A stretch of 34,996 bases of DNA, from the NCBI GenBank assembly GCA_003170555.1, contig PMZC01000052.1, forward strand, positions 7,613-42,608, given 5' to 3'. Shown here one piece after another: positions 25,739 through 34,873 of this stretch. The stretch is from Deltaproteobacteria bacterium (lineage in GTDB: Bacteria > Lernaellota > Lernaellaia > Lernaellales > Lernaellaceae). The notes beneath the pieces are model-generated. The model made no database searches and was not told where the DNA came from. It saw only the letters and a program-made list of their open reading frames with translations. Position numbers and translations under genes: made by a program. How positions within the stretch are numbered: position 1 is the first letter of the stretch; each line of letters starts with the position of its first letter.

Positions 25739-26520
25739 TTGTCACGCTCCACGTACGCGTACGCGCTGTGGTTGTGGATCGATTCGAAGTTCTCCACCTC
25801 GACCGTGTACCACGTCACGCCGTCCAGCGCGTCGAGCTTTTCGGCGACGTTGCGCACCACGTCCTCGACGAACACCGGGTGATCGTAGGCGTGCTCGGTG
25901 ACGAACTTTTCGTCCTCGCGCTTGACGACGGAATACACCGCGCTCGAAGCGCTTTGCTCGGCGATTTCGATGATCTCTTCGATCCAGATGAACCGGCTCA
26001 TGCGGTAGCTGATGCGGATCTCGCCGCGTTGGTTGTGCGCGCCGCGCTCGGCGAGTTCCTTCGAGCACGGGCACAGCGTCGTGACCGGCGCCTGCACGGT
26101 GATCACCAGATCGCGTTCGCCTTTTTTGCGCGAGCCGGACAGGCGGCAGGCGTATTCCATCAGCCCGCGCGCGCCGCTGACCGGCGATTCCTTCTCCACG
26201 AAGTAGGGGAACTCCACTTCCAGGTGGGCGGTTTCGGCGTCGAGGTGTTTGCGGATGTCGGCCAGCAGTTTGAAGAAGTTGCGCACCGAGATTTCGCCGT
26301 GATGCTCGTTGAGCACCTCGACGAAGCGGCTCATGTGCGTGCCTTTGAAGTGGTGCGGCAGGTCGACGTACATGTTGAACGTGGCCACGGTATGCTGCGT
26401 GCCGTTGGCGCGGTCGAGCACGCGGATCGGATAGCGGATGTTCTTCACCCCGACCTTGTCGATGGGAATGTTGCGCTCGTCGCGCTGACTGGCCACGTCG
26501 AACAACTCGTCCTTGCGCAC
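25729..26520 (-). CDS. folE2: GTP cyclohydrolase FolE2 (type IB)
   Basis: Converts GTP to 7,8-dihydroneopterin triphosphate, the first step of folate, biopterin and queuosine synthesis, using a metal-flexible tunnel-fold enzyme. The protein has 263 residues, typical for FolE2. Family features are IPIDKVGVKNIRYPIRVLD, TFNMYVDLPHHFKGTHMSRFVEVL, the zinc/catalytic Cys in TTLCPCSKELAERGAHNQRG, and VENFESIHNHSAYAYVE. The start is GTG at 26520, with AGGAGG seven bases upstream. The 5' end and upstream region are duplicated at 27842-27911. The final codons AGAGGCTGA lie inside an octamer repeat array. Confidence 0.94.
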   Translation of the reverse strand: MRKDELFDVASQRDERNIPIDKVGVKNIRYPIRVLDRANGTQHTVATFNMYVDLPHHFKGTHMSRFVEVLNEHHGEISVRNFFKLLADIRKHLDAETAHLEVEFPYFVEKESPVSGARGLMEYACRLSGSRKKGERDLVITVQAPVTTLCPCSKELAERGAHNQRGEIRISYRMSRFIWIEEIIEIAEQSASSAVYSVVKREDEKFVTEHAYDHPVFVEDVVRNVAEKLDALDGVTWYTVEVENFESIHNHSAYAYVERDKRG

Positions 26521-26545
26521 GTTCTCGCCTCCTGCGAAAGACAGG
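26476..26545. repeat. Direct repeat, copy 1 (folE2 start region)
   Basis: A 70-bp segment covering the Shine-Dalgarno, the GTG and the first 15 codons of folE2. It matches 27842-27911 at 68 of 70 bases in the same orientation, 1366 bp away. Confidence 0.9.
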
Positions 26546-26761: not shown

Positions 26762-27790
26762 ATGGCCGGAACGTTGTTCACCAAGGTGCGGGAAATAATA
26801 TCCGCCATATCCCCGGAACGAAGCTCAGTAACTAAGTATGTCGTCCCCGGAATTCGCCCGCCGCGCGTCACGCTTTGCGCGTTTGTCGTTCTGTCGTTCA
26901 TTGGCTGGTCCGGCGGATGCTCGGGGAAAACGAGCAATAGGCCCTCACTAGACGCACCACCGAAAGCCGCTATTGACATGACAATCCAGGTGTACGGACC
27001 GGTTGAGAGCCAGCGGGATTGGACGAATTCGCTTCGCGAAAAACTGATATCGGACATCCGTAGCGGGATCACGGAACGCAAACCGGACACCTCGGACATG
27101 ATCAAGATTCCCGCCGGGAAGGCGATCATCGGCTGCGAGGACTCTCCGGACGCGTGTCTGCCTTTTCAGACAAGAAACATCGGCGCGTTCTACATCGATC
27201 GCGACGAAGTGACAAACGCCGAATACAATCGATGCGTCGCCGAAAAGCAATGCCTGCCCCCGACGAATTTTCCGCACATGCCCGGCAGCAGCGAACCGGA
27301 TCATCCCGCCCTGCTGACCTTCAAGCAGGCCGAGCGATATTGCCTCTGGGCGGGAAAGAGGCTGCCCACCGAATACGAATGGGAAAAGGCCGCGCGCGGC
27401 AAGGACGGTCGCCTTTACCCCTGGGGAAACGACGCCCCGTTAAAACCGGTCGCCAACGTCTGCGGCGCGGAATGCACGATGAATTGGGCCGACCCGACAT
27501 GGTCCGATGGTTACGCCTACACCGCTCCCGTGGGAAGATTTCCGGAGGATCGAAGCCCGTACGGCCTGCTCGACGTGGCGGGAAACGTCAAGGAATGGGT
27601 GGCCTCGGTCGCGCCACTGCCTCAATACCATTTCATCGCGCGGGGTGGTTCCTGGTACACCAAGCGCGAACAGTTGCGCGCGTGGGAGCGACAGGAATGG
27701 CGACAGGGGATTCGCCTCGACGACAAGGGCGTCCGCTGCGCCGCCGATGGCCGAGGTCCCATTAAAAAATCTGCAACGAGGCCGAGGTGA
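26762..27790 (+). CDS. Formylglycine-generating-enzyme-like (SUMF1) lipoprotein, probably non-catalytic
   Basis: A protein of 342 residues with a long N-terminal region. A hydrophobic segment (about 36-52) is followed by a probable lipobox Cys53 (GWSGGC), and an FGE-sulfatase/SUMF1 domain occupies the C-terminal 220 residues. Domain landmarks are MIKIPAGKAIIG, FYIDRDEVTNAEYNRC, TFKQAERYCLWAGKRLPTEYEWEKAARG, LYPWGND, YGLLDVAGNVKEWV, ARGGSWYT and GVRCAAD. In active FGE the stretch after GGSW carries two catalytic cysteines (C-X4-C). Here GGSWYTKREQLRAWERQ has neither, so formylglycine formation is not expected. A ligand-binding or structural SUMF1 role is more likely. The ATG at 26762 has GGGAGG upstream. 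It sits between the two folE2 repeats. Confidence 0.85.
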   Translation: MAGTLFTKVREIISAISPERSSVTKYVVPGIRPPRVTLCAFVVLSFIGWSGGCSGKTSNRPSLDAPPKAAIDMTIQVYGPVESQRDWTNSLREKLISDIRSGITERKPDTSDMIKIPAGKAIIGCEDSPDACLPFQTRNIGAFYIDRDEVTNAEYNRCVAEKQCLPPTNFPHMPGSSEPDHPALLTFKQAERYCLWAGKRLPTEYEWEKAARGKDGRLYPWGNDAPLKPVANVCGAECTMNWADPTWSDGYAYTAPVGRFPEDRSPYGLLDVAGNVKEWVASVAPLPQYHFIARGGSWYTKREQLRAWERQEWRQGIRLDDKGVRCAADGRGPIKKSATRPR

Positions 27791-28094
27791 GAAAGCCGAG
27801 AGTCGACGAGATCCGACACACTTTCAATTCGTCTCCCCACTCTCGTCGCGCTGACTGGCCACGTCGAACAACTCGTCCTTGCGCACGATCTCGCCTCCCG
27901 CGAAAGACAGGGGCTCTTTATCGCCGAATCGCGGAATCTGCAAGCCTTGGAAGCGTTGAGTGTTTTGTACCTGTTGGGAGGTTTGCCTTGTGGGTTCACG
28001 ACCAGAGCGTTAGAATCAAAAAAGGCGATAGAAAAGGGATTCGCGACTGACTGGGTCGACATCGAAAAGAGGTTCGGCGGAGGCCTCAAAGACG
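27791..28094. other. 304-bp gap with a folE2 remnant and an unassigned open frame
   Basis: The left part holds the second folE2-start copy. From about 27902 the plus strand is open without a stop to 28135 and would encode FIAESRNLQALEAL, VLYLLGGLPCGF and similar. Its only start is a TTG at 27947 without a Shine-Dalgarno, and it overlaps the next gene by 41 bases. I cannot support it as a gene. Confidence 0.4.
27824..27911 (-). pseudogene. Truncated second copy of the folE2 5' end
   Basis: This copy (27842-27911) of the folE2 start region keeps the Shine-Dalgarno and the GTG at 27886, followed by RKDELFDVASQRDE. Homology then ends, and the frame closes after a few unrelated codons. Similarity to the first copy decays gradually beyond 27911, with scattered matches such as CGCCGAA and TGCAAG. 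This suggests an old duplication rather than a recent insertion footprint. Confidence 0.75.
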
Positions 28095-28682
28095 ATGGAA
28101 ATTCACCCGACGAGAATACCCGGTCGATGGCGTGAAGGGTACGCGCTCGATATTCAGACAGTAAAAAGCGTTTGTCTGGGCGAGGATGAGTATGGTCATC
28201 CCCGCTTTGAAAACGAGCGGTCGGCGATGGGAGAATGTCTCAAACAGCTTAAGTACGACGGAGATTTGTCCGTCGTACCGAAACTTGTCGAAACGGCGGT
28301 CGCCTTCATCGAATGGTGGCAGGTCGAACCGGACCTCATCGTACCCGTTCCACCGTCGAGACCGAGAAATTTACAACCGGTGATTTTGTTGGTCGAGGAG
28401 TTCAGCAACCGCCTCGGGATTCCGGCGGTCTTTGATGCGGTGACGGCGAGTCGAGTACCAAAAGAAATGAAGGACGTTGATGACTTCAACGAGAGAATGC
28501 GGTTGCTCGATGGAGCTTATACGGCCAGCCGGGAAAAAACGGAAGGCAAACGAGTTCTGCTCTTTGACGATTTGTTCCGCTCCGGTGCGACGATGAATGT
28601 GATCACTTCTCTCATCCTGGATCAAGGCGGCGCCATCGACGTTTATGCTCTGACGCTCACCCGCACGCGGAGCAACCGATGA
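28095..28682 (+). CDS. ComF-like phosphoribosyltransferase
   Basis: A type I phosphoribosyltransferase-fold protein of 195 residues. The PRPP-binding motif VLLFDDLFRSGATMN (about 154-168, acidic pair Asp158-Asp159) is intact. A ComF-like DLIVPVPPSRPRNLQPV lies at about 80-97. The N-terminal GRWREGYALDIQTVKS...RSAMGECLKQLKY block is typical of a subset that pairs with unknown genes rather than competence operons. There is no zinc-finger N-terminus as in true ComF. The ATG at 28095 is followed at once by family sequence; its Shine-Dalgarno (GGAGG) is ten bases away. The last four bases overlap the start of the SLOG gene (ATGA), so the two proteins are translationally coupled. The substrate is unknown; a nucleotide-like substrate is an inference. 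Confidence 0.85.
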   Translation: MEIHPTRIPGRWREGYALDIQTVKSVCLGEDEYGHPRFENERSAMGECLKQLKYDGDLSVVPKLVETAVAFIEWWQVEPDLIVPVPPSRPRNLQPVILLVEEFSNRLGIPAVFDAVTASRVPKEMKDVDDFNERMRLLDGAYTASREKTEGKRVLLFDDLFRSGATMNVITSLILDQGGAIDVYALTLTRTRSNR

Positions 28683-29230
28683 CCAAGGTCTTCATTGGCG
28701 GATCACGCAAGATCAGCCGGCTCAGCGCCGACGTTCGGCGAAAAATCGACATGATGGTCGAGAAACGACTTCATGTTCTGGTTGGTGACGCCAACGGTGT
28801 CGACAAGGCGGTGCAGTCTTATCTGCAAGACAAGCGTTACGAGCTCGTCGAGGTCTTCTGCGCGGGAAGTGACTGTCGAAATAATGTTGGTGGATGGCCC
28901 ACCCGCGCCGTCGCGGTCAACTCCAAAAAGAGAGACTTTGATTTCTACGCGACCAAGGATCGCCTCATGGCGTACGAGGCGTCGCTCGGGTTCATGATCT
29001 GGGATGGTTCGAGCGTCGGTACGCTGCTCAATGTGCTCCGCCTGATTTGGCGGCAAAAGAAAGTGGTGGTGTACAACGTCCCAACGAAAGCTTTTTCTGA
29101 ACTGAGCAACGAAACGGACTGGGAATCCTTTCTTTTGCAATGCCCGCCTGATCTTCGACAACGTCTCGAGCACAAGACAATAGATGAACGGTTCTCGGAT
29201 GCGCCAAGCTTGCAGATGAAGTTGATCTGA
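28679..29230 (+). CDS. SLOG-domain (DUF2493/YspA-like) nucleotide-sensor-type protein
   Basis: A 183-residue Rossmann-like SLOG protein. The LOG/YspA pattern is visible: KVFIGGSRKISRL (first strand and loop), VLVGDANGVDKAVQSYL (about 33-49, the GxxxGxD-type ligand loop), KDRLMAYEASLGFMIWDGSSVGTLLNV (about 93-118, with the DGxSxGT segment) and KKVVVYN. SLOG proteins bind nucleotides or their derivatives and appear as sensors or processing enzymes in stress and conflict systems (established for the superfamily). The start ATG overlaps the TGA of the phosphoribosyltransferase gene by four bases. The last about 50 residues are unlike the core and may be a partner-binding extension. No effector such as a nuclease or membrane pore is adjacent, so function is open. 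Confidence 0.82.
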   Translation: MTKVFIGGSRKISRLSADVRRKIDMMVEKRLHVLVGDANGVDKAVQSYLQDKRYELVEVFCAGSDCRNNVGGWPTRAVAVNSKKRDFDFYATKDRLMAYEASLGFMIWDGSSVGTLLNVLRLIWRQKKVVVYNVPTKAFSELSNETDWESFLLQCPPDLRQRLEHKTIDERFSDAPSLQMKLI

Positions 29231-30425: not shown

Positions 30426-31856
30426 GTGGCGCGCGTCTTCCTCATCAACCCGGGCATGGATGTCGCCGCCGGCTTCGGCGAATACCAAAGCTTGATGGAG
30501 CCGATGCCGAGCATCGGGCTGGCCTACCTCGCCGCGGCGTGTCGCGCGGCCGGGCATGAAATCCGCGTGCTCGACAACTTCGTGAACAACCATTCCGTCG
30601 ATCGCGTGGTGGAGCTCACGCGCGAATGGCGCGCCGACGTGGTCGGCCTGTCGATGCTCACGCCGACGGCGATGTCCACCGCCGCGCTCGGCCGGGCGAT
30701 TCGCGAACGCACGGGCGCCAAGGTCGTGCTGGGCAATCTGCACGCCGCGCTCTTTCACGAAGACCTGCTCCGCGAAGGCGCCGGCGACGCGGTGGTGCAC
30801 GGCGAGGGCGAGGTCGTTTTTCCGAAACTGGCGCAGGCGCTGGTCGACGGCAAACTCGGCGAGCCGCCGCCCGGCGTCAGCACGCGCAACGGCGACGGCG
30901 TGCGTGCGAACCTGCCGCCGGTGCTCATCGAAGACCTCGATGCGCTGCCGCGACCGGCGTGGGATCTGTTCCCTTGGCGGCGCTACACCTTTCTGCCGTT
31001 CGTCACGGTGGCCAAGCCGTGCCTTTCGATTTTGGGTACGCGCGGCTGCCCGTTCCGCTGCAAGTTCTGCGCGCTGGGCTACCAGGGCAATCGCGTACGC
31101 ACGCGCTCGCCCGACAACATCGCGGCCGAGGTCGAATGGCTGGTCCGCGAGTTCGGCATTCGGCACGTGGGCTTCGTCGATCCGATTTTTCCACTGAGCA
31201 AGAAGCACGGCCTGGCGACCTGCGAGGCGATTCGCGCGCGCCGCATCCCCGGCGAGTGGTGGTGGACCAGCGAAACGCGCGTCGATGTGATCGACGAAGA
31301 GATGTGCCGCGCGATGAAGGCGGCGCGGTGCAAGCGCATTCTCTTCGGCGTCGAATGCGGGGTGGATGAACTGCTGGCGGGCGTCGGCAAGAATTTCACC
31401 ACCGATGATGCGCGCCGCGCGATCGGCGCCGCGCGGGCGGCCGGGCTGCAAATCTCCGCGTTCTTCATGCTCGGTCTGCCGGGCGAGACGGCGGCGATGA
31501 CCCGCCGCACGATCGACTTCGCGCGCGAGCTCGATATCGACTTCGCGAAATTCGGCATCACCATTCCGCTGCCGGGCTCCGAACTCTACGACAACCTGGT
31601 GCGCGAAGGGCGCATCCAACCCGGCGACTGGGGCAAGTTCACCACGTTCAACCCGGACCCCGACGCGCTGCCGTACGTGCCCGCCGGCCTGACCGCGCGC
31701 GAGTTGCAGCGCCTGCACCGTTGGGCGACGTGGCGCTTTTACATGCGGCCGAAAATGATCTTCAAACATGTGTTCGTGATCCGCTCCATCGGCCTGAAGC
31801 AGATCGTCAACGGCGCGTCGATTCTGCTGCGCCAACTTTTCCGAGGGCGGCTGTAA
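30426..31856 (+). CDS. Cobalamin-binding-type radical SAM enzyme 1
   Basis: A 476-residue radical SAM protein of the BchE/HpnP/HpnR-like group. The N-terminal cobalamin-binding-like Rossmann domain (about 1-150) has PSIGLAYLAAACRAAGHEIRVLDN, ADVVGLSMLTPTA and GDAVVHGEGE. The usual linker ALPRPAWDLFPW follows. The cluster ligands are Cys208, Cys212 and Cys215 in TRGCPFRCKFC. SAM-binding elements such as GHVGF-type strands and FFMLGLPGETAAM are normal. The GTG at 30426 lies 3 bases after the methyltransferase stop, with AGGAAAG upstream. The basic, aromatic C-terminus is typical of members acting on lipid-like substrates, though not diagnostic. It probably methylates an unactivated carbon or performs a ring or linkage rearrangement. 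Confidence 0.9.
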   Translation: MARVFLINPGMDVAAGFGEYQSLMEPMPSIGLAYLAAACRAAGHEIRVLDNFVNNHSVDRVVELTREWRADVVGLSMLTPTAMSTAALGRAIRERTGAKVVLGNLHAALFHEDLLREGAGDAVVHGEGEVVFPKLAQALVDGKLGEPPPGVSTRNGDGVRANLPPVLIEDLDALPRPAWDLFPWRRYTFLPFVTVAKPCLSILGTRGCPFRCKFCALGYQGNRVRTRSPDNIAAEVEWLVREFGIRHVGFVDPIFPLSKKHGLATCEAIRARRIPGEWWWTSETRVDVIDEEMCRAMKAARCKRILFGVECGVDELLAGVGKNFTTDDARRAIGAARAAGLQISAFFMLGLPGETAAMTRRTIDFARELDIDFAKFGITIPLPGSELYDNLVREGRIQPGDWGKFTTFNPDPDALPYVPAGLTARELQRLHRWATWRFYMRPKMIFKHVFVIRSIGLKQIVNGASILLRQLFRGRL

Positions 31857-33404
31857 ATGCGCGTGCTGCTGGTGCGCCCACCGAAATATCTGTGGCCGTA
31901 TATGAACGAGCAGGACAACTACCTGCTGCCGCAGGCCATCGTATATCTCGGCGCGGAAGCGCGGCGGCGCGGGCACGCGGTGACGCTGATCGATTGCCTG
32001 CCGTCGCGCCTGGGTTGGCGCGGTCTCGAGCGCACGATCCGCGAACTGCAGCCGCAGGTCGTCTGCGCGGGCGACAGCGAAACGCTTTATCAACACGAAA
32101 GCGGCCGCGTGTTTCGGCTGGCGAAGTCGATTGATCCGCACATCTTCACCGTCGCCGGCGGCGTACATTTTTCGCACGCGTGCGATCATGCGTTCGCGAA
32201 CTACCCGATCGACGCCATCGTGCGCGGCGAGGGCGAACGCACCTTCGGCGAACTGCTCGACACGCTGGCCGGCGGCGGCGAGGTCAGCGATGTCGCCGGT
32301 CTTGCGTTGCCCGACGGCGGCGGCGGCATGCGCTACACCGCGCGGCGCGAACTGATCGCCAATCTCGACGACCTGCCGTTCCCGGCCTACGACCTGCTGC
32401 CGATGGAGCGCTACGGCGCGGCGCGCTATTTGTTTTCGCCCGGCGGCGTCACCATGCACCATAGCCGCGGCTGCGTGGACGGCTGCGCGTATTGCGCGTG
32501 CTGGCTGCAGATGGCGCGGCGCGACGGCGAACCGCCCGGCGAAACGCTGCGGCCGCGTTGGCGCACGCGTTCGGTGGGGCCGGTGGTCGACGAAATGGAA
32601 ACGCTGCGCCGGCGCTACGGCAAATCGTGCATCGTCTTCGTCGACGACACGTGGAACGTCGAACCAAGATGGAGCGACGCCTTCGCCGACGCGTTGTTGC
32701 GCCGCCCGCTCGACGTGGTCTGGTTCGCCTTCATGCGCGCCGATCTGCTCGCGCGCGACGAGGAGTCGGGCCTGTTCGCCAAGCTGATGCGCGCCGGCCT
32801 GACGCACATCTGCATCGGCATGGAGCGCGCCGACGACGCCGAGTTGCGCGAACTGCGGAAGCACAACATCCAGGTGGATCGCACGACGGCGCTGGTGCGC
32901 AAGCTGCGCAAGAAATACCCGTCGCTGTTTTTGCAGACGACGTTCATCGTCGGCCTGCCGCAAGATACGCCGGAAAGCCTCGACCGCCTGCTGGCGTATG
33001 TGGAAAGCATCGACCCGGATTATCCGGCGTTTCATCCGCTCACGCCGGTCCCCGGCACGGCGCTGTGGAACGAGGCGCAACGCGACGGGCGGCTGGAGAT
33101 CACCGACTTCACGCGTTACGACTGGATGACGCCGGTGATGCGCACCGACGCCATGACGCGCGCGGAACTCGAATACAAAATCTGGCAAATGAACTCGCGC
33201 TACCTGAACCCGTGGCGCATTCTGCGCGGCGTGCTGTCGCCCCACACCTACCGCCGGCGCATGTACCTCTGGTGGCTGCTGGTCAGCCTGCGCGTGGGTT
33301 GGGATTACGTGCTCGACCGCGTGCGGCCTTCGCGTTCGACGCGGCGCAAAACGCAATTGTCGGATTACGTCGGCATGGTCAAGCCGGATTGGTACGACCA
33401 GTGA
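31857..33404 (+). CDS. Cobalamin-binding-type radical SAM enzyme 2
   Basis: A 515-residue radical SAM protein whose ATG follows the stop of enzyme 1 directly (TAAATG). The N-terminal domain (about 1-150) has LPQAIVYLGAEARRRGHAVTLIDCLP, QVVCAGDSETL, TVAGGVHFSHACDHAF and DAIVRGEGERTFGEL. The linker LPFPAYDLLPM follows. Cluster ligands are Cys206, Cys210 and Cys213 in SRGCVDGCAYCACW, with a further Cys two residues on. The rest of the barrel includes CIVFVDDTWNV, THICIGMERADDAELRELRKHNI and TFIVGLPQDTPES. The C-terminal extension is long and basic, with a WLLVSLRVGWDYV segment that may touch the membrane. Its last base pairs overlap the next gene (GTGA). Function within the operon is unknown. 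Confidence 0.9.
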   Translation: MRVLLVRPPKYLWPYMNEQDNYLLPQAIVYLGAEARRRGHAVTLIDCLPSRLGWRGLERTIRELQPQVVCAGDSETLYQHESGRVFRLAKSIDPHIFTVAGGVHFSHACDHAFANYPIDAIVRGEGERTFGELLDTLAGGGEVSDVAGLALPDGGGGMRYTARRELIANLDDLPFPAYDLLPMERYGAARYLFSPGGVTMHHSRGCVDGCAYCACWLQMARRDGEPPGETLRPRWRTRSVGPVVDEMETLRRRYGKSCIVFVDDTWNVEPRWSDAFADALLRRPLDVVWFAFMRADLLARDEESGLFAKLMRAGLTHICIGMERADDAELRELRKHNIQVDRTTALVRKLRKKYPSLFLQTTFIVGLPQDTPESLDRLLAYVESIDPDYPAFHPLTPVPGTALWNEAQRDGRLEITDFTRYDWMTPVMRTDAMTRAELEYKIWQMNSRYLNPWRILRGVLSPHTYRRRMYLWWLLVSLRVGWDYVLDRVRPSRSTRRKTQLSDYVGMVKPDWYDQ

Positions 33405-34873
33405 GTGCGTCGTCGCCTTCCACCGCGCGCGTGGCTTTCCTGCAAGGCAACGCGATCAACGAATCGCTGGGGTTGTGCGACCTCGCGGGACATCTGCGCG
33501 ATCTCGGCGTGACGACGCGGCTGCTCATCCGGCGCGAGGAGCGGCGGCTGGCGGACGAACTGCGTGCGTTCGCGCCCGACCTCGTCGTCATTCCGGCCGA
33601 TCTGCTCGGCCACAACTCGGCGCTCGCGCTCGCGGCGCTGGCGAAATCGGCGACGGCCGCGCCGACGGTTTTGGGCGGCACGCACCCGACCTTTTTCCCC
33701 AATGTGGTGCATCGGCCGCACGTTGATTACGCCTTTGCGGGCGAGGCCGAGGGCGTGGTCACTGATTTGCTCGCGGCGGTGCGCGAGCGGCGCGACCCGT
33801 CGGCGATACCCAACCTGATCGTGCGCGAAGGCGAGGGCGAGCGCGTCAATCCGCTGCGGCCGCTCGTCGAAACCCTCGACGACCTCGCGCTGCCCGACCG
33901 CGAAATCTACTACCGCTATCCGTTTCTCTCGGCGTTCCCCTGGAAGAAGTTCGCCACCGGCCGCGGCTGCTTGAATGCGTGCGGCTTCTGCTTCAACCCG
34001 GCGTATCGCGGCCTGGTCGGGCCGCGCGGCTTTTTCCGGCGCAAGAGCCCGGCGCGCATTTGCCGCGAGATCGACGACGTACGCCGCCGCTGCCGGCTCG
34101 ACATCGTGCACTTTTCCGACGACCTGTTTTCGAGCGGCGAGGGGTGGCTCGAATCGTTCGTCGACGCTTACCGCCGCGCGGTCGCGCTGCCGTTTTCGTG
34201 CAACGTGTTCGCCACGACGATCACCGAGCGCACGGTGCGCCTGTTGCGCGACGGCGGCTGCCGCGTGCTGGCGATGGGCGTCGAGATCGCCGACGAGGAC
34301 GCGCGCGTCCGCCTCTTGAACAAGCCGGTGACCACGGCGCAGATCGTCGCGGCGGCGGCGCTGGTGAAGCAGGCGGGCATCCGGCTGGTGACGTTCAACA
34401 TCCTCGGTCTGCCGTGGTCATCGCCGGCGGGCGACGTGGACACTCTGCTGCTCAACCGCGAGCTCGGCAGCGACCACACGCGCGTCGCCGGGCTAGTCCC
34501 GTTTCCCAAAAGCGCGTTGACGCGGAAGATGATGGACGAAGGCTTCTTGGCCGCCGATTACGACAAGCGCATCTACGAATTGGATGACCTGCCGCATTGG
34601 CCGGCGGAGAGCATTTTCAAAAGGCGCGACGCGGCGGAGACGACGCGGCTCTATCGCCTGTGGCATCTGCTGCTGCGCTGGCGACTGCCGAAGACGACGA
34701 TCCTGCGCCTGCTCCGTTCGCGCTGGGCGGCGGTGCTGACGCCGTTGGCGCTGCTGCTGGGCCTGACCAACGAAAAGCGCATCTTCGGCTTCAGCTGGCT
34801 CACCGGCTTCCGCTACTTCCTGCACGTGAAAAGCCCGGCGCTCAAGACCACGAACTACGTGTCGTTCATCTAA
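33401..34873 (+). CDS. Cobalamin-binding-type radical SAM enzyme 3
   Basis: A 490-residue radical SAM protein. The start is GTG at 33401, overlapping the TGA of enzyme 2 by four bases (GTGA); the frame is open far upstream only as a shadow of enzyme 2. The N-terminal domain has ARVAFLQGNAINESLGLCDLAGHLRDLGV, DLVVIPADLLGHNS, VLGGTHPTFFPN and DYAFAGEAEG. Cluster ligands are Cys190, Cys194 and Cys197 in GRGCLNACGFC. Later SAM-barrel elements include IVHFSDDLFSSGEGW, VLAMGVEIADEDARVRLLNKP and LVTFNILGLPW. A hydrophobic helix near the C-terminus (AAVLTPLALLLGLT, with more aromatic residues after) suggests membrane association. It is the last gene of the unit inside the window. Confidence 0.9.
   Translation: MSASSPSTARVAFLQGNAINESLGLCDLAGHLRDLGVTTRLLIRREERRLADELRAFAPDLVVIPADLLGHNSALALAALAKSATAAPTVLGGTHPTFFPNVVHRPHVDYAFAGEAEGVVTDLLAAVRERRDPSAIPNLIVREGEGERVNPLRPLVETLDDLALPDREIYYRYPFLSAFPWKKFATGRGCLNACGFCFNPAYRGLVGPRGFFRRKSPARICREIDDVRRRCRLDIVHFSDDLFSSGEGWLESFVDAYRRAVALPFSCNVFATTITERTVRLLRDGGCRVLAMGVEIADEDARVRLLNKPVTTAQIVAAAALVKQAGIRLVTFNILGLPWSSPAGDVDTLLLNRELGSDHTRVAGLVPFPKSALTRKMMDEGFLAADYDKRIYELDDLPHWPAESIFKRRDAAETTRLYRLWHLLLRWRLPKTTILRLLRSRWAAVLTPLALLLGLTNEKRIFGFSWLTGFRYFLHVKSPALKTTNYVSFI

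Follow-up and report, generated by a model that had tools for sequence, protein, structure and literature searches.

What is the function of two overlapping genes, one for a phosphoribosyltransferase (PRTase) and one for a SLOG protein, that lie in a low-GC block of a deltaproteobacterial genome? Both open reading frames were found in the window (the whole stretch of DNA that was analyzed, 34,996 nucleotides) where the initial annotation had placed them, together with their ATGA overlap. The features of the locus are the following:

28095–28682, forward strand: PRTase gene, a ComF-like phosphoribosyltransferase and proposed toxin (195 aa, ATG start)
28557–28592, forward strand: PRPP-binding motif LLFDDLFRSGAT, residues 155–166 of the PRTase
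28679–28682, forward strand: ATGA overlap, read from the sequence as the SLOG start plus the PRTase stop
28679–29230, forward strand: SLOG gene, a DprA-core protein and proposed antitoxin (183 aa, ATG start, pI 9.3)
28784–28816, forward strand: motif GDANGVDKAVQ, SLOG residues 36–46, which on alignment to DprA is the equivalent of the SGxAxGID motif of that protein
29000–29032, forward strand: motif WDGSSVGTLLN, SLOG residues 108–118

The shared bases suggest that translation of the SLOG gene is coupled to that of the PRTase gene. In base composition the pair stands apart from its surroundings, with a GC content of 53.7% (PRTase) and 53.4% (SLOG) versus 63.5% for the window and 62.0%, 66.1%, and 66.8% for the neighboring folE2, methyltransferase, and radical SAM genes, respectively. 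The accessory block and the adjoining duplicated folE2 fragment that had been noticed by eye were thus both real: the 5′ end of folE2 (26476–26545) recurs at 27842–27911 as a 70-base direct repeat of 97% identity, which looks like a trace of insertion or recombination beside the gene pair. The repeat brackets a gene with an FGE-sulfatase domain (26762–27790) and, on the other side, downstream of the methyltransferase, successive genes (30426–34873) resemble by sequence radical SAM proteins of the cobalamin-binding type. A comparison with an empty site gave no answer, since genomes of the same family carry folE2 and the methyltransferase on unrelated contigs. In a tree of pairs, the nearest relatives of the window pair were pairs from deltaproteobacterial metagenome-assembled genomes (MAGs).

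The arrangement recurs widely. An alignment-based scan that located genome loci from the SLOG side yielded 80 of them, where the gene directly upstream of SLOG was an intact PRTase at 60, a broken or partial PRTase at 12, and no PRTase at 7, while the remaining locus met a contig end. On viral contigs, the alignment-based scan found the pair, intact or near-complete, at 20 of 23 loci. SLOG homologues were detected by tblastn on 98 plasmids, many right behind a gene annotated as “ComF family protein” or PRTase, and with a joined PRTase-SLOG query, the two halves matched at a single site in 55 of 100 plasmid records; the hosts of such plasmid pairs included Agrobacterium, Xanthomonas, Methylorubrum, Klebsiella, Serratia, Acinetobacter, Roseomonas, Sinorhizobium, and Listeria. 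Used as a single-sequence pattern, the window SLOG matched nothing in the viral and genome collections, whereas the alignment-based scans did, and an annotated phage set contained no homologue of either the window SLOG or a prophage homologue. The genes overlapped by exactly 4 bases in 46 of 80 intact pairs, and none was separated by a gap of more than 17 bases. Pairs span at least 17 phyla, which are intermingled on the tree, and near-identical pairs were found across families or phyla (Agrobacterium/Asaia and Nitrospirota/Nitrospinota), which suggests transfer between distant hosts, with the reservation that bins may contain stray contigs. The spread over plasmids, prophages, and chromosomes is patchy, and the pair is common on conjugative plasmids, where ParA, relaxase, recombinase, or rep genes adjoin it.

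The two proteins also change together. Pairwise distances among PRTases and among SLOGs correlated with r = 0.80 (85 non-redundant pairs), a value reached in 0 of 2000 permutations, and this correlation shows joint inheritance and transfer of both genes. With the arrangement recurring across phyla and the sequences co-evolving, the pair is a conserved unit beyond chance. This upholds the initial annotation on the unity of the two genes, for which it had named co-occurrence in many unrelated phyla as support. Some chromosomal pairs adjoin restriction-modification or other PADLOC families, but neighbors are mixed (methylases, HNH, DRT, and HipA, as well as argininosuccinate synthase) and, because there is no matched baseline for them, we claim no enrichment in defence islands. 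Neighbors vary from locus to locus, and no third conserved gene was found at the pair loci.

The first gene encodes a PRTase with a conserved PRPP site, in which D158, D159, and G164 are invariant (alignments of 11 and 64 homologues; 85 non-redundant pairs). Its best match among PADLOC models was to PsyrT, within the PRTase part at positions 537–686 of 689 (E = 3e-18), followed by ShosT (E = 5.9e-9), a model that widely matches ComF too; matches to NCBIfam comF (1.3e-12) and to Pfam both fell under the cut-offs of the models. Across the family, the PsyrT model matched 64 of 64 PRTases and the ShosT model 63 of 64, while the housekeeping ComF of the same genome, which served as a control, scored much more poorly (1.2e-8 for PsyrT and 0.0015 for ShosT). 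The structure model (pLDDT 92.8) has a type I PRTase fold and resembles numerous PRTases, among them PRPP-Mg-bound ShosT (8zvc); against the ComF of Helicobacter pylori (7p0h), the TM score was 0.66 by query length. The N-terminal cysteine clusters present in the other ComF of the genome are absent from the sequence of the window PRTase.

The second gene proved harder to place by sequence. Residues G36, D37, A38, G40, D42, and Q46 of the first motif and W108, D109, S112, and G114 of the second are invariant among 66 sequences, and N118 is almost so. The window SLOG had no significant Pfam, NCBIfam, or PADLOC match, including to the ShosA and PsyrA models; its weak Pfam match was DprA. Among the 66 homologues, the ShosA and PsyrA models matched just 4 to 5, and weakly (ShosA, 4 of 66). 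The homologue in Listeria innocua scored 1.4e-4 for DprA, 0.0026 for ShosA, and 0.0053 for PsyrA. An hhalign comparison of the SLOG family with one ShosA-like protein was insignificant (E = 0.21), versus 0.0047 with DprA, and profile searches of PDB sequences gave no SLOG match with E ≤ 1. Matches came from the fold search alone: for the AlphaFold model built on the 66-sequence alignment (mean pLDDT 93.6), the top PDB structure was ShosA of Escherichia coli APEC O1 (8zva; E = 6.5e-6, TM 0.57 by query length), followed by DprA structures, with the SLOG domain of ThsA bound to 3′cADPR at rank 12. The protein had initially been labeled YspA-like, a label that we replace: it shares with YspA-type SLOGs (YAcAr, PF10686) the SLOG Rossmann fold and a short single domain, but PF10686 did not match it at E ≤ 1 while recognizing a DUF2493 protein used as a positive control (L005; E = 1.5e-31), and DprA and ShosA are nearer. 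The SLOG cores are basic throughout (median pI 9.2), which fits binding of nucleic acids or nucleotides.

Antitoxin candidates of this family come in a short form of ~183 aa (73 of 91) and a long form of ~285 aa (17 of 91). Both long forms that were scanned (L003 and L004) carry a C-terminal helix-turn-helix (HTH) domain, dnstrm_HI1420 (PF21716, E down to 7.5e-23), which is labeled “probable addiction module antidote protein,” and some of the tblastn SLOG homologues are themselves annotated as “addiction module antidote protein.” This domain is absent from the window SLOG. We considered whether it had been lost there by a frameshift and rejected the idea, as tblastn of long homologues past position 29230 found no remnant and the short form is the more common.

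The two genes differed in how often each was found alone. SLOG was solitary or next to a broken PRTase at 19 of 80 genome loci. Damage to the PRTase was seen on the Enterobacter plasmid pM308-NDM1, where an IS3-family transposase sits inside the PRTase gene and SLOG is intact (L011, 522–3052), and in Allorhizobium, where a PRTase with frame breaks lies beside SLOG (L022). When loci were approached from the PRTase, an intact SLOG was present at 8 of 8 viral loci and at two plasmid loci (L169 and L170), and the sole opened PRTase locus lacking SLOG (L171) held a truncated PRTase split over two frames. Frequent SLOGs without a PRTase, and hardly any intact PRTase without SLOG, are the asymmetry that a toxin and its antitoxin would predict, in a comparison weakened by SLOG-side sampling, which under-counts broken SLOGs beside intact PRTases, and by sequencing errors that may account for part of the PRTase breaks in MAGs.

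Other solitary SLOGs were seen in settings of their own. Homologues on plasmids of Mesorhizobium, Agrobacterium, and Shinella (L005 4001–4534, L008 2501–3037, and L009 2501–3037; ~40% identical) share a constant order of a toprim gene, a DUF2493 (YAcAr SLOG) gene, SLOG, and DUF736, and are candidate anti-addiction or anti-defence antidotes. On two cyanobacterial plasmids (L016 and L017), ~120-aa homologues without a PRTase lie shortly upstream of another “SLOG family protein” gene. More distant SLOG proteins without a PRTase neighbor on viral contigs (L148–L159; 76 to 107 bits) form a separate phage group.

The initial annotation knew of no described system with such a pair, which was mistaken in kind, for ShosTA shares the layout, as do PsyrTA and RqlHI with an added helicase (PMC9122126, PMC4670107, PMC12593503). 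Together with a PRTase, a DprA-like protein protects E. coli from T7 and lambda; in shosTA, psyrTA, and rqlHI, the antitoxin is a DprA homologue (PMC9122126). In RqlHI, the toxic part is the PRTase domain, mutants of the PRPP pocket mostly lose toxicity, and RqlI consists of a DprA region plus an HTH (PMC4670107). As reported in a review from 2025 (PMC12593503) that cites Pu et al. 2025, ShosT is both a PRTase and a pyrophosphatase; it perturbs purine metabolism and gives rise to DNA duplications and filamentation, while ShosA binds DNA and counteracts ShosT, with T7 Gp0.7 as a trigger.

Like ShosTA, the window pair consists of two genes in an operon, one for a PRTase and, right next to it, one for a SLOG/DprA-like protein, with a PRTase of similar size that retains the PRPP site, and a SLOG model of ShosA/DprA fold. 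It differs in that its SLOG (183 aa versus 303 positions in the ShosA model) is without the extra regions of ShosA and escapes the ShosA sequence model, and in that its PRTase has a conserved N-terminal region of its own (GxW..G...LD.H). In a ShosTA-like pair from a different genome (L195), the genes stand in the same order and overlap by one base; the PRTase of that pair aligned to the present family (E = 7.8e-13) but its 330-aa SLOG partner did not do so significantly (0.21). To PsyrTA and RqlHI, the resemblance lies in the PsyrT-type PRTase, the DprA-like partner, and the C-terminal HTH that long-form antitoxins share with RqlI, whereas the 195-aa window PRTase is without the RecQ-like helicase domain and the antitoxin is at most half the size. 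The ComF/ComFC and DprA proteins of competence belong to the same superfamilies and folds, but the window PRTase is without their cysteine-rich N terminus, its SLOG is the DprA core only, and the pair is mobile and patchy. The PADLOC models PDLC03961 (ShosA) and PDLC03962 (ShosT) were tried as specific markers and dropped, since nearly every genome matched (more than 180 of 193, apparently through DprA and ComF); ShosTA calls made from them could not be relied on unless a score threshold were applied. In literature of incomplete coverage, we found no paper describing the compact subfamily. As the ShosA model is unmatched and the function of the pair is a prediction from sequence and structure models, we do not file the window pair as a ShosTA member.

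Taken by its anatomy, the pair appears to work like ShosTA, and we conclude that it is very probably a minimal toxin-antitoxin module of the ShosTA/PsyrTA/RqlHI kind, with a PRTase toxin and a DprA-core SLOG antitoxin. The first gene would yield a small toxin that binds PRPP and, by analogy with ShosT and RqlH, interferes with purine nucleotide pools, with DNA integrity, or with both. The second gene, whose translation would be coupled at the overlap, would supply the antitoxin, which may neutralize the PRTase by direct contact and/or by a nucleic acid–linked action as proposed for ShosA. Addiction would keep such modules on plasmids, and on prophages and chromosomes they are probably retained for phage defence too.

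A narrower form of this reading, compatible with it, holds that the module serves plasmid or prophage addiction only and plays no part in defence. The frequency of the pair on conjugative plasmids agrees with this, as do the standalone SLOGs on rhizobial plasmids, which fit anti-addiction, but the pair is also chromosomal in many phyla, at times next to the defence families named above, and a DprA-PRTase pair does protect against phages (PMC9122126), so that we regard addiction alone as possible and not probable. We think it unlikely that the pair belongs to a separate toxin-antitoxin family, in which the bare DprA-core SLOG would bind PRPP or the nucleotide product of the PRTase, as a sensor or a sponge and not as an inhibitor of the enzyme; the solitary SLOGs of rhizobial plasmids would, on this view, act as anti-addiction or anti-defence antidotes.

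The initial annotation had suggested a division of labor between a maker and a sensor or cleaver of a nucleotide-like molecule. In such a signaling pair, the PRTase would produce the molecule on infection for SLOG to sense or cleave, with a logic as in Thoeris or CBASS. The invariant ligand-site motifs of both proteins would suit this, as would the 3′cADPR-bound Thoeris ThsA among the fold matches, albeit at rank 12. Neither protein has a recognizable effector domain, though, and the loci offer no conserved third gene; SLOGs persist without a PRTase while intact PRTases hardly occur without SLOG, PRTases lie broken next to intact partners, and the antidote HTH fusions point toward neutralization, all of which favors a toxin and antitoxin and makes the signaling pair rather improbable. 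Still less credible, and to our minds highly improbable, is a housekeeping role in DNA uptake (competence) or in nucleotide or base salvage. The kinship of the two proteins to ComF and DprA in fold and family speaks for it, but the genome encodes, apart from the pair, a ComF with cysteine clusters at its N terminus (C235) and a DprA (C364), homologues of the pair are missing from 6 of 6 relatives of the same family or class that were searched (G001–G006), and the pair is low in GC and often found on plasmids and prophages.

As a toxin-antitoxin module, the pair would add to the PRTase/DprA theme known from ShosTA and PsyrTA a compact form that occurs in at least 17 phyla and on many plasmids and prophages. 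The PADLOC antitoxin models fail to recognize this form, and it is often annotated as a “ComF family protein” and a “hypothetical protein.” With its SLOG reduced to the core, it would be a simple system in which to ask how DprA-like proteins hold PRTase toxins in check, the question that ShosTA poses too.
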